Shown here: piece after piece, positions 25,344 to 28,971 of the stretch
Position numbering within the stretch: the stretch's first letter is position 1
Layout: each line of letters begins with the position of its first letter
From: Gammaproteobacteria bacterium MedPE
GTDB lineage: Bacteria; Pseudomonadota; Gammaproteobacteria; Enterobacterales; Psychrobiaceae
DNA: 41,178 bases
Direction: 5' to 3'
Assembly (NCBI GenBank): GCA_001874365.1
Contig: MPDF01000014.1
Span: forward strand, 1 to 41,178
The notes under the pieces: model-generated
Told to the model about the DNA's origin: nothing
Seen by the model: only the letters and a program-made list of their open reading frames with translations
Database searches by the model: none
Program-made: the position numbers and the translations under genes

Positions 25344-25374
25344 TGACGCTTCGTCAAACTTTGACGAAGCGTCA
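25344..25374. promoter_or_regulatory. Double TetR operator, 31-bp perfect inverted repeat
   Basis: Two 13-bp palindromes, TGACG-CTT-CGTCA (25344-25356) and TGACG-AAG-CGTCA (25362-25374), are arranged as mirror images around a single C at 25359, giving a perfect 15-bp inverted repeat. Their centres are 18 bp apart, a spacing typical of two repressor dimers binding side by side. The site covers the predicted transcription start of the TetR gene. Confidence 0.85.
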
Positions 25375-25577: not shown

Positions 25578-27212
25578 TTAAGTAGAGTAGCAGTTTTTAC
25601 CACGCTTTTTAGCTCGGTATAAAGCAGTATCGGCAAGCTTCAATAGACTATCACTAGATTCTTCTTTCTCCGCATTATATACGGTGATACCAATACTTAA
25701 GGTTACATAGTCAGCAACATCACTGCGCTGATGAGGTATGTGGTCTTTTTTGAGTTGCTCTAAAATGCTATCAGCTACAATTTCAGCACCACTGAGCGGC
25801 GTATTAGGCAACAAACAGACAAACTCTTCGCCACCATAACGAGCAACAAAATCTTCTGGTCGACGCATTACAGATTTTAAAGCACTAGCAATTTTTTGCA
25901 GACACTCATCACCCTCAATATGACCGTAGAAATCGTTATATTTTTTAAAATTATCAATATCCATCATAAGAATAGCTATTGGCCACTGCTGTCGCTGAGC
26001 GGACAATAATAAGTTTTTAATCGCCTTGTCTAACCCGCGACGATTGGCGACATTAGTAAGGCCATCAGTTAAAGAAGACTTTAATAACTCTTGTTTTTGA
26101 CGTTCAATGGTCTGTGCAAACTCTTCAAATGATTTGGCAATGGCGGTGATTTCATCCTTGCCTCCGACTTTTAAGTCAATACTTTCACCAGCCAATCGCG
26201 ACACCACTTTTTTATTCAATAAAACTAAACGTCTAATTAGGCGACGCTGAATATAAAAAACAATAATGATTATAACGACAAAGGTAACAATTGCAGCACT
26301 ACCTAAGGTCTTAGTTTGGGCGTCAACGGTCTCTGAAAAGTCCTTAATATCTTCAAGTACTGTTCCGTTATACTTAAACGATTCATATTCAGCTAATCTC
26401 GCATAATCAATCACTAAGTTTCGGACAAAATCAGCACGTCCATGCGTTCGGCCAAGCACACGTAATGATTGTATCTTCATTGCCATCGCGCCATCCGCAG
26501 CCACTAAACCTTCATAAAGATCACTTAATAGTAACTTCTGAGAATCTTCAAAGTTTAATGTCTCGACTGAACGATTATAGAATTTGGTGATGTTTCTTGA
26601 CATATTCTTAATTTTATTGAGGCGCTTAAACGATAACCCCTCTTCTGCCATTATAACTAAACGGCTAACCGTATGTGCAAAATCACTATGAGCCAGCTCT
26701 TCATCGTGAATCGCAATATCATGAATTCGATAAACAGCACGGCGCTGCTTAAGCAATAAATCACTAATAGTTAACTGCTCTTCAATTAACGCATTTAATG
26801 CATCTATTTCTTGGGCAATGACATCCAATTGCATTAATAAACGCTGCGCATTCCCAAGCTCGACAACCCGCGGTCTGATTGCAGAAATTTTTACTTTGAG
26901 ATCATCAAACGCAATTCGCCGTTGGCCTTGTGAATTGGCCATTGTAAGACTATCGGTAGCGTACGTTAACTCATTAACTTGACTGTACATCTTTGCATAG
27001 CTCATCACCTTGGGAAATGAGGTTGCCGTTGTATCATCTAGCAACTTTTCGAAGGCAGCTAATCGGTCGTACGCGATCAACGCTACAATGGAACTCAGCA
27101 CCAAGACAATTGAAAAAGATAGTGTAAATACGGTATTGAGCGATGAATGAACACGTCGATACTTTTGCTGACTGTCGCTTATTTTAAATGGCACAGGTTT
27201 ATTATCTTTCAT
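25578..27212 (-). CDS. Membrane-bound diguanylate cyclase (HAMP-GGDEF)
   Basis: A 544-residue inner-membrane protein that should make cyclic di-GMP from GTP. Membrane helix 1 at about residues 27-48, a helical periplasmic domain of about 255 residues, membrane helix 2 at about 304-321, HAMP at about 322-375, and GGDEF at about 380-544. The active site is GGEEF (460-464), with LTNVANRRGLD and MMDIDNFKKYND upstream. The product-inhibition site RxxD (Arg451-Asp454) lies five residues before GGEEF and is intact. The gene begins 11 bp inside the end of the degenerate 5'-nucleotidase gene, so the two products are made together and may form a sensor/output pair. Confidence 0.92.
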   Translation of the reverse strand: MKDNKPVPFKISDSQQKYRRVHSSLNTVFTLSFSIVLVLSSIVALIAYDRLAAFEKLLDDTTATSFPKVMSYAKMYSQVNELTYATDSLTMANSQGQRRIAFDDLKVKISAIRPRVVELGNAQRLLMQLDVIAQEIDALNALIEEQLTISDLLLKQRRAVYRIHDIAIHDEELAHSDFAHTVSRLVIMAEEGLSFKRLNKIKNMSRNITKFYNRSVETLNFEDSQKLLLSDLYEGLVAADGAMAMKIQSLRVLGRTHGRADFVRNLVIDYARLAEYESFKYNGTVLEDIKDFSETVDAQTKTLGSAAIVTFVVIIIIVFYIQRRLIRRLVLLNKKVVSRLAGESIDLKVGGKDEITAIAKSFEEFAQTIERQKQELLKSSLTDGLTNVANRRGLDKAIKNLLLSAQRQQWPIAILMMDIDNFKKYNDFYGHIEGDECLQKIASALKSVMRRPEDFVARYGGEEFVCLLPNTPLSGAEIVADSILEQLKKDHIPHQRSDVADYVTLSIGITVYNAEKEESSDSLLKLADTALYRAKKRGKNCYST

Positions 27213-28710
27213 TTATTTTTGCTTTTATATCAACTAAACGTCCATCTATTTGCGGAGATAACATTTTGTCACGGGTAATATTATCGGTAACAATATCAGA
27301 CACCAACCGAATAGCTAGATGCTTCGCATCGAGTTTTTTCAAATCTTTAAACATAGTATAACCATCACCACCAGACACTAGATAATCTGTCGTGGCAAGC
27401 CGATACATTTGAGTGAGTTGAATATCCTGACCATTAATTTTAATCGATTTAACACGCTGACCAACAGGCTCTCGACTATCAAAAGTAATGGTCATGCCAG
27501 ATATTTGAGCGAAACGCCCCTTATAAACATCAATTGCGCTGACAGCATTCTCCATCGCCTCAAATAAGGTTGCCCCACTAATTTCAATTAACGCAATCAT
27601 ACCGCGATATGGCAATTCATTAGCGATCGTTTCACGTGTTATAGGGCTTCCAGCTGCATAATTGAGATCGCCGCGAATTGAACCACTATTAATAATTGAG
27701 ATTTGCGCATCTGCAAACTCTCTCACACTGTCAGCGATATAATTACCAAAAGCATTTTCAGAACTACGCACTATTGTTCTTTTAGTTGTTATCGGTACCG
27801 TGAACTTTCCAATTTCTACCGCCAAAATCAATTTAAGTCGATCAACATGACCAGCGACTTGTTTTGCAACTGCTTTATCTTGCTCATACTTATCTATGTC
27901 TTTAATAACGTATGAAAAATCTTTCAAGTGAGAAGGTGACTTGTTATCTATCGTCAGTGATAAAACGGCAATACCATCGGGTGACTTAATGAACACATCG
28001 CGTTCATGGTATTTTCGAGAAGAATAATCAATATCTTCATAGCTTTCATCTTTGTGTAAGCTAACGTCAATAACATTATCATCAAGCAACTGATTAATCA
28101 CTGGATAGTAGCCCGTATATTGCAATACTAAGAGCTCTGCCCCTGCTTCACGCAGCTCTGCAGCCGCTTTTTTAATAGCACGTTGAGGATCAGTCAATGA
28201 CACTTGGCTAAAAGTATAATCTTCTAAGTCAACATTATCGATTATTGACATAAAACCAATGGTGACACCGTGTTGCTCGGTAATTGTACTATTAACAATA
28301 CCATCGAGTCCTTGATTTGTTTTAGCATCAATAACATTAGTCGCAACGATAGGAAATGTGGCGTCATAAGACCGCAAAGAAAGATTTTTAGCGTAAAAAC
28401 TAAACTCTCGTCTACTGACACCCATTGCATCGGGCTCAAGAGAATTCAGTAAATCTATAATGTGAGAACCTTTATCAAAGGACGAGAGAATACTAGGCCC
28501 TAGGCTACCACCGCCAAAGAAGAAAAAGGTTTTTTGATTAGCTCGGCGTTGCTGCTTAAGCATTGTTGCCAGCTTTGCATAACGCCCTTTATTACCATGA
28601 ATTTCAGGCATTTCACTAGCAAATACAATATTCACTTTTTGATGAGTAATTTCACTTCCTGACACCGGCATACACGCCAATATCATCAAAATCGACACAA
28701 TCAATCGCAA
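27202..28710 (-). CDS. UshA-like 5'-nucleotidase family protein with degenerate metal site
   Basis: A 502-residue exported protein (signal peptide about residues 1-19). The C-terminal 5'-nucleotidase domain (about 300-490) is well kept: NSGSIRGDL, NELPYRGMIALIEISGATLFEAMENA, GRFAQISGMTITFD and VSGGDGYTMF, the segments that bind nucleoside. The N-terminal metallophosphatase domain keeps the fold (HGNKGRYAKLATML) but not the metal ligands: the D-x-H motif is FASEMPEIHG, the GD motif is GGGSLGPS, the GNHEFD motif is SRREFSF, and the later histidine motifs read LQYTGYY and DVSLHKDES. It is therefore probably a non-catalytic, nucleotide-binding periplasmic protein. It precedes and overlaps the diguanylate cyclase gene. 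Confidence 0.85.
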   Translation of the reverse strand: MRLIVSILMILACMPVSGSEITHQKVNIVFASEMPEIHGNKGRYAKLATMLKQQRRANQKTFFFFGGGSLGPSILSSFDKGSHIIDLLNSLEPDAMGVSRREFSFYAKNLSLRSYDATFPIVATNVIDAKTNQGLDGIVNSTITEQHGVTIGFMSIIDNVDLEDYTFSQVSLTDPQRAIKKAAAELREAGAELLVLQYTGYYPVINQLLDDNVIDVSLHKDESYEDIDYSSRKYHERDVFIKSPDGIAVLSLTIDNKSPSHLKDFSYVIKDIDKYEQDKAVAKQVAGHVDRLKLILAVEIGKFTVPITTKRTIVRSSENAFGNYIADSVREFADAQISIINSGSIRGDLNYAAGSPITRETIANELPYRGMIALIEISGATLFEAMENAVSAIDVYKGRFAQISGMTITFDSREPVGQRVKSIKINGQDIQLTQMYRLATTDYLVSGGDGYTMFKDLKKLDAKHLAIRLVSDIVTDNITRDKMLSPQIDGRLVDIKAKINER

Positions 28711-28939
28711 AATAATTCCCTCAACAAACGTCCGTATTACTAATCTAGACTTTTTAGCTAGCTACTGCAATTGACAGTATACAAAAGATGTAAAATAACT
28801 GTAGATCGAACGCTTATTACTCAAAAAGTAACGAAAATGCTTAAAAACAGACAAATAAAGCATCGAAGCTCAGAATGTAAAATAGATAGCTTCAAACAAG
28901 ATAGGCAGGAAATCAGGATAACTAATACAGTCCATAAAA

Positions 28940-28971
28940 AAAGCCACATGATATTGCTATCACGTGGCTTT
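28940..28971 (-). terminator. Intrinsic terminator of the rpsF-rplI operon
   Basis: AAAGCCACATGATA / TATCACGTGGCTTT, a 14-bp stem with one mismatch and a 4-base loop. On the minus strand it is followed by a run of seven to eight T, 28 bp after the rplI stop codon. Confidence 0.9.

Follow-up and report, generated by a model that had tools for sequence, protein, structure and literature searches.

The 41,178-nucleotide contig MPDF01000014.1 of Gammaproteobacteria bacterium MedPE (assembly GCA_001874365.1), referred to below as the window, contains on its minus strand two overlapping genes which appear to encode a catalytically dead 5'-nucleotidase and a membrane receptor regulated by it. The first gene (27202-28710, TTG start) specifies a protein of 502 amino acids with the fold of UshA and CD73, here called the pseudo-nucleotidase, and the second (25578-27212, ATG start) a membrane diguanylate cyclase of 544 amino acids. 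The two reading frames overlap by 11 bp (27202-27212, minus strand). In the pseudo-nucleotidase an N-domain resembling a dead metallophosphatase (about residues 24-270) is followed by a C-domain with a conserved nucleotide pocket (about residues 300-500). The cyclase is composed of a first transmembrane helix (TM1), a helical periplasmic sensor of about 255 residues, a second transmembrane helix (TM2), a HAMP-like linker and a GGDEF domain, the membrane helices being placed by eye; the portion from TM1 over the TorS-like periplasmic domain to TM2 (26211-27140, minus strand) is the part in common with histidine kinase partners found elsewhere.

A Pfam search at an expectation value (E) of 1 identified in the window pseudo-nucleotidase the domain 5_nucleotid_C alone (E 1.1e-36, 126.8 bits, cut-off 23.6) and no match to Metallophos (PF00149). 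The structure model (predicted local distance difference test, pLDDT, 82; predicted template modelling score, pTM, 0.75; 17 aligned sequences) adopts the UshA/CD73 fold. A Foldseek search with this model returned 2z1a as the best match (E 1.9e-37), and also CD73 (6xue, E 8.0e-36) and UshA (1oi8, E 3.2e-31, template modelling score 0.75). The predicted fold and the ancestry place the protein among the 5'-nucleotidases of the UshA/CD73 type. Its N-terminus is hydrophobic, a property which a simple hydropathy rule finds in 44 of the 46 members from the order described below, and is presumably a signal peptide. In the cyclase Pfam recognized the GGDEF domain with E 2.7e-52, and both the GGEEF active site and the RxxD inhibition site are intact. 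The overlap and the intact cyclase had already been reported in a preliminary description made from the sequence of the window, and both were reproduced here.

The catalytic and metal-binding set was scored as nine residues in the numbering of Escherichia coli UshA (41, 43, 84, 116, 117, 120, 217, 252 and 254), and in intact-type sequences H or Y was allowed at 43, D or N at 120 and H or Q at 254. Apart from F429, F498 and H117, we take the residue numbers used here to be those of UshA; in a UshA-type relative these positions hold residues of the expected types. Alignment with intact enzymes revealed that all nine are replaced in the window protein (D41 by E, H43 by P, D84 by G, N116 by R, H117 by R, D120 by S, H217 by T, H252 by D and H/Q254 by S), which bears out the earlier observation of altered metal-ligand motifs. 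The former D84 site, now G68, lies within residues 62-73 (FFFFGGGSLGPS; 28492-28527, minus strand), and the former GNHEFD site reads SRREFSF (residues 99-105; 28396-28416, minus strand). Shifted metal ligands were considered and rejected, as none is displaced in the alignment with 69 intact-type sequences. These keep all nine residues in 62 cases and eight in 4, and the remaining three keep 7, 6 and 1. The genome of the window strain encodes another, intact nucleotidase.

A profile built from six members was used to search 394 genomes of the order at E 1e-40 and gave 21 matches. Eighteen of them, the window included, scored above 340 bits, and the receptor genes next to them all specify the same periplasmic domain; the remaining three (166-173 bits) are intact enzymes without such a partner. 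An independent test on 196 genomes of one family yielded 37 matches, 28 of them new, and at all 28 new loci the partner is located directly downstream on the same strand, with gaps of -86 to +94 bp and with GGEEF throughout. Altogether, all 46 members in the order (window included) adjoin receptors whose periplasmic domains are of a single kind. In 45 of these receptors the output is a GGDEF domain, with GGEEF and RxxD in 45 of 45 cyclases, and by this active-site criterion the 45 partners are predicted diguanylate cyclases. One partner, from a congener (G004; L072:5674-6543, minus strand), has no output domain: in the alignment it stops right behind its second membrane helix, next to a full-length pseudo-nucleotidase. 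Within the genus of the window, four of nine genomes gave no match at E 1e-30, and in a search of the class five of 369 genomes matched, comprising two known members and three intact-type enzymes.

The phylum was searched in 349 genomes, which gave 51 matches, 45 of them not seen before; 13 of the 45 were examined. Twelve are enzyme-like and keep seven to nine of the nine residues as counted from printed rows (position 217 is Q and position 252 D in three of them, and position 43 is D in two). The thirteenth (G1175) is a dead nucleotidase with KREFSY replacing GNHEFD and adjoins a protein of 1179 residues, the first 340 of which match the periplasmic domain (106 bits), followed by PAS, HisKA, HATPase, REC and Hpt domains. 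This partner, the sole kinase partner scanned against NCBIfam, matched TorS best, with an alignment that covers its kinase part and does not reach the cut-off. A search around G1175 found matches in 19 of 59 genomes, and in all 19 the adjacent receptor has this periplasmic domain as well (56-116 bits), together with HisKA and HATPase_c in every case and a receiver in 18. No such partner was present near the three intact enzymes matched in the order, the three matched in the class and the twelve enzyme-like matches examined in the phylum.

Two loci of the kinase branch deviate in their arrangement. In G1222 (L283) the kinase frame breaks off at 711 residues, with a piece of 168 residues from the same cluster behind it, which may reflect a natural break or an assembly error. 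In G1242 (L276) a second open reading frame of the kinase cluster (897 amino acids) lies directly upstream of the pseudo-nucleotidase, and the partner of 767 amino acids lies downstream.

With 65 of 65 members paired, a chance pairing was rejected. The paired genomes carry four family labels in one order and two in a different group of the phylum, and the gene neighbourhoods change. The check proposed in the preliminary description, a search for the same gene pair in other genomes, returned the pairing together with shared losses in 46 of 46 members of the order and 19 of 19 of the kinase branch. That description had named the cyclase as the partner. A cyclase does adjoin 45 of the 46 members of the order, but the constant partner is the periplasmic domain, since histidine kinases next to this protein carry that domain too. 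A profile of this domain, made from 18 partners, was run against the 394 genomes at E 1e-8 and identified 18 places, all beside a pseudo-nucleotidase. Refinding these 18 follows from the construction of the profile; independent of it are the absence of further matches, and hence of orphan copies of the domain, in these genomes at this threshold, and the 28 and 19 partners obtained later. A third conserved gene was sought as well, and no other family was common to all loci in either branch. A valyl-tRNA synthetase gene (named by eye) occurs near 14 of the 46 loci, the TetR-type gene of the window is present at 4 of 46, all four in the window's own genus, and in the kinase branch no family beyond the two genes is found at all 19 loci, the next one being found at 7. 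Plasmid records gave 98 matches, all below 60% identity and at 29-33% among the 15 matches listed.

The loss of catalytic residues extends over the whole family. Among the 46 members of the order none of the nine residues is kept in 15, one in 26 and two in 5; H43, H117, D120, H217 and H252 are each retained in 0 of 46, with D41 (23), H/Q254 (5), N116 (4) and D84 (4) as partial survivors. One of the lost residues, H117, serves in catalysis in UshA (PMC7922932). In the kinase branch 19 of 19 keep at most one residue, H252 in 13 and D84 in 4, and two members keep none. None of the 65 members has the dimetal ligands and the catalytic His/Asp of an active enzyme, and at least seven of the nine residues are gone in each. 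The former GNHEFD site is mostly KREFS[FY] in relatives, and the K-R-E-F-S replacement is itself conserved. At the former D84 site G66, G67, S69 and P72 (window numbering) are found in 46 of 46 members of the order, and the same holds for each of F63, S69, P72, D79 and H83 near the old metal site, residues which are mostly absent from intact-type sequences. Because invariant residues of its own surround the former metal site, the N-domain seems to have been rebuilt rather than abandoned. A further nucleotidase without eight of the nine residues was seen in a clostridial record (L028:2936-4996), where it is a second copy just upstream of an intact one; it falls outside the receptor-paired family.

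The pseudo-nucleotidase is under purifying selection, as shown by computation. Comparison of the window gene with its nearest relative, 87% identical (uncultured Gammaproteobacteria bacterium), gave 0.074 nonsynonymous substitutions per site (dN) and 0.86 synonymous substitutions per site (dS), corresponding to a dN/dS of about 0.09. This low ratio and the absence of seven or more of the nine residues from all 65 members argue against decay. A FastTree phylogeny with intact enzymes placed all 65 in one clade with no enzyme inside, and within it the cyclase branch (46) had a support of 0.987 and the kinase branch (19) of 0.841. A single loss of catalysis and a single switch of output would be the simplest reading of this tree, although it is not proven.

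Most of the nucleotide pocket in the C-domain is preserved. The residues R315, N341, R346, Y368, G398, Y443 and D449 (window protein numbering) of the 5_nucleotid_C domain (27343-27813, minus strand) form the kept pocket, and together with the score over the cut-off they agree with the intact-looking nucleoside-binding domain of the preliminary description. In UshA numbering the 46 members of the order have R379 in 46, N405 in 46, R410 in 45 (K in one), an aromatic residue at 429 in 46, G458 in 46, an aromatic residue at 498 in 46 and D504 in 46; in the kinase branch the pocket is kept in 19 of 19. In UshA the base is stacked between F429 and F498 (PMC7922932). CD73 holds the base between F417 and F500, the ribose by N390 and D506 and the phosphate by R354 and R395 (PMC8677862). 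By position, F417, F500, N390, D506, R354 and R395 of CD73 correspond to 429, 498, 405, 504, 379 and 410 of UshA; the equivalence of R354 and 379 is our inference, and the rest of the correspondence is visible in part. Aromatic clamp, ribose residues and phosphate residues are all present, N431 being the exception. Judged from this conservation of the pocket, a nucleotide ligand is likely.

Divergence of the pseudo-nucleotidase and of the periplasmic domain was correlated with r 0.86 (44 members, with G004 and G097 left out), a value reached in 0 of 2000 permutations; an earlier run with all 46 members gave 0.87, with a GGDEF column distorted by G004. The partial correlation between nucleotidase and periplasmic domain given GGDEF was 0.62, that between nucleotidase and GGDEF given the periplasmic domain 0.19, and the two domains of the cyclase itself showed a divergence correlation of 0.83.

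The periplasmic domain is probably a helical sensor akin to that of TorS, as suggested by profile comparisons. At E 0.1 the Pfam model of the TorS sensor (PF21689) gave weak matches to three of the 18 members, the best with E 8.1e-5 and none over its cut-off; in searches of whole genomes the cyclase of G001 reached 22.5 bits (cut-off 27), and G000, G006 and G007 gave no match at E 0.01. Residues 29-183 of the window cyclase matched the NCBIfam TorS model with E 1.3e-6 and 26.9 bits (cut-off 676.5). Using hhalign, the sensor aligned with 21 TorS sequences at 97.3% (E 1.9e-11, 297 columns), and at 86-92% after trimming of the membrane helices on one or both sides. As controls, reversed TorS gave 3%, and the four-helix bundle of methyl-accepting chemotaxis proteins (MCP) gave 92% untrimmed and 10-11% trimmed. 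The untrimmed MCP value indicates that membrane helices inflate such scores, so that the trimmed figures are those to trust, and with these the profile-profile comparison supports homology to the TorS sensor domain. Against solved structures the profile gave 8 weak matches (best E 0.032), mostly coiled coils.

Scans for promoters and terminators around the gene pair were not better than shuffles. At 28936-28971 of the window (minus strand) a hairpin followed by T residues lies 3' of the gene for ribosomal protein L9, both assigned by eye; it is not listed by the terminator scan and would set the L9 operon apart from the gene pair. A 31-nucleotide inverted repeat with a 14-bp stem (25344-25374) coincides with the beginning of the TetR-type gene as called. 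In the relative G006 the gene call begins at a position that matches a later start in the window, and for this reason the repeat may be the operator of the TetR-type regulator, with the true start further downstream.

The reuse of a dead enzyme as partner of a cyclase, which the preliminary description had favored, is strongly supported by the unshifted ligand positions and by the pairing and losses common to relatives. That the pseudo-nucleotidase regulates the membrane receptor is well supported by the genomic pattern. The output varies (GGDEF 45, kinase 19, absent 1) and the periplasmic domain is constant, as would be expected of a nucleotidase whose target is this domain. We consider it probable that the pair is a two-protein receptor working like TorT-TorS, with the dead nucleotidase in the place of the binding protein and with an exchangeable output domain. 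TorS works only with the periplasmic binding protein TorT, and in this trimethylamine N-oxide sensing system of E. coli, as proposed here, a periplasmic protein is combined with a membrane receptor from the neighbouring gene (PMC6814406). The sensor domains are distantly similar, with the cut-offs of the TorS models not reached; the present system differs in that the partner is a dead nucleotidase and the output in the order a GGDEF domain instead of a kinase. In Vibrio cholerae NspS is the periplasmic partner of the GGDEF-EAL receptor MbaA, and in this polyamine system, as in the one proposed here, a periplasmic ligand-binding protein steers a membrane enzyme of cyclic di-GMP (c-di-GMP) metabolism (PMC8967002). 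NspS belongs to the periplasmic binding proteins and takes polyamines as ligands, and MbaA combines GGDEF with EAL, whereas here a dead nucleotidase stands beside GGDEF only. With E. coli UshA and human CD73 the pseudo-nucleotidase has the two-domain fold and the nucleotide pocket of the C-domain in common, but the family lacks the dimetal centre and the catalytic His/Asp, and a receptor adjoins every member examined.

Periplasmic input, linker and GGDEF also recur in a census of membrane diguanylate cyclases with periplasmic sensors (PMC8846402). The nucleotide sensors listed there, FimX, Bd1971, Lcd1, Tlr0485 and DcpA, use degenerate GGDEF, cyclic nucleoside monophosphate-binding or GAF domains (PMC8846402), and the word nucleotidase has 0 occurrences in the main text of this census. 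In the literature searched, consisting of listings and abstract starts with few subscription papers covered, no nucleotidase-like partner of a cyclase or of a TorS-like receptor was described. Nucleotide sensing by FimX, Bd1971, Lcd1, Tlr0485 and DcpA is cytoplasmic.

In the proposed mechanism the pseudo-nucleotidase would be exported to the periplasm; though incapable of hydrolysis, it would take up a ligand there in the pocket of its C-domain, most probably a nucleotide or a nucleoside. UshA shuts around its ligand by a large hinge rotation (PMC7922932), and binding proteins work as a flytrap (PMC8846402); by this likeness the two domains may close around the ligand, and the protein, free or loaded, would dock on the helical periplasmic domain of the partner. 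The change would be relayed through TM2 and the HAMP-like linker to the GGDEF domain and alter c-di-GMP, in whichever direction, and in the sister branch the same relay would set the histidine kinase. The weakest step is the identity of the ligand. Tentatively, and with somewhat less than even confidence, we propose that a dead relative of CD73 serves a membrane receptor as its nucleotide-binding subunit and that the two together perceive nucleotides in the periplasm or outside the cell, the subunit having arisen once by loss of catalysis and having replaced the classical binding protein of TorT-TorS-like systems.

Several observations weigh against this proposal. The joint node of the 65 members has a support of 0.25 (its parent 1.0), and support for the cyclase branch varies: it was 0.44 in earlier trees with 46 members and without the kinase branch, and 0.98 or 0.51 when one or two divergent members were left out, the branch being a clade each time. 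Distance correlations are inflated by shared descent. The Pfam TorS model finds nothing in the periplasmic domain of the window (E 0.1), the model of the sensor domain is poor (pLDDT 53, two sequences), and a fold search with it gave no match in the PDB at E 0.001, so that the kinship with TorS is drawn from sequence profiles. The Pfam four-helix MCP module is matched instead by five of the 19 kinase partners (two over the cut-off) and also by one TorS-type protein of the genus (G003); given these kinase partners, the domain may be a helical-bundle sensor of a general type. In the pocket, N431, a residue lining the base site, is kept in 12 of 46 members of the GGDEF branch, as compared with 16 of 19 in the kinase branch, and since it is mostly gone in the former the ligand may be something other than an ordinary nucleotide.

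This last point speaks for an alternative that we regard as rather unlikely, in which the pseudo-nucleotidase regulates the receptor as its partner but binds, for example, a flavin, an NAD-like cofactor, a sugar nucleotide or another aromatic compound, or senses the state of the envelope without a small molecule. N431 is gone in 34 of 46, the equivalent pocket of human CD73 also accommodates caffeine and riboflavin (PMC8677862), and the invariant F63, S69, P72, D79 and H83 at the former metal site may belong to a rebuilt binding site. However, the equivalents of N390, D506, R354 and R395 of CD73 are kept in 45-46 of 46 and in 19 of 19, although a ligand other than a nucleotide could do without some of these residues. 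A shared operon alone, with co-transcription and no physical interaction, is improbable: gene overlaps are common in bacteria, but pairing in every member across changing neighbourhoods, with a constant periplasmic domain while the output changes or vanishes, argues against it. Still more improbable is a catalysis that persists through another metal site or chemistry, the pair then being an enzyme and an independently regulated cyclase; one or two original residues are left in 31 of 46 (mostly D41) and one in 17 of 19 kinase-branch members, but the five residues lost throughout the order, the conserved K-R-E-F-S replacement and the separate intact nucleotidase in the same genome speak against it. 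A pseudogene or assembly artefact, to which the missing catalytic residues might point, was rejected with near certainty by the dN/dS, the intact full-length frames and 64 further members with such losses.

Receptors assisted by a periplasmic binding protein are known from TorT-TorS and NspS-MbaA; here a dead enzyme seems to fill that place and is kept while the output differs between kinase and cyclase. Annotation as '5'-nucleotidase' would mislead for the pseudo-nucleotidase clade. The pair is a candidate route by which nucleotides outside the cytoplasm could act on c-di-GMP; if the proposal is true, the presence of nucleotides derived from lysis, for example, or of nucleotide nutrients would be signalled through c-di-GMP in the lineage with cyclases and through a phosphorelay in that with kinases.

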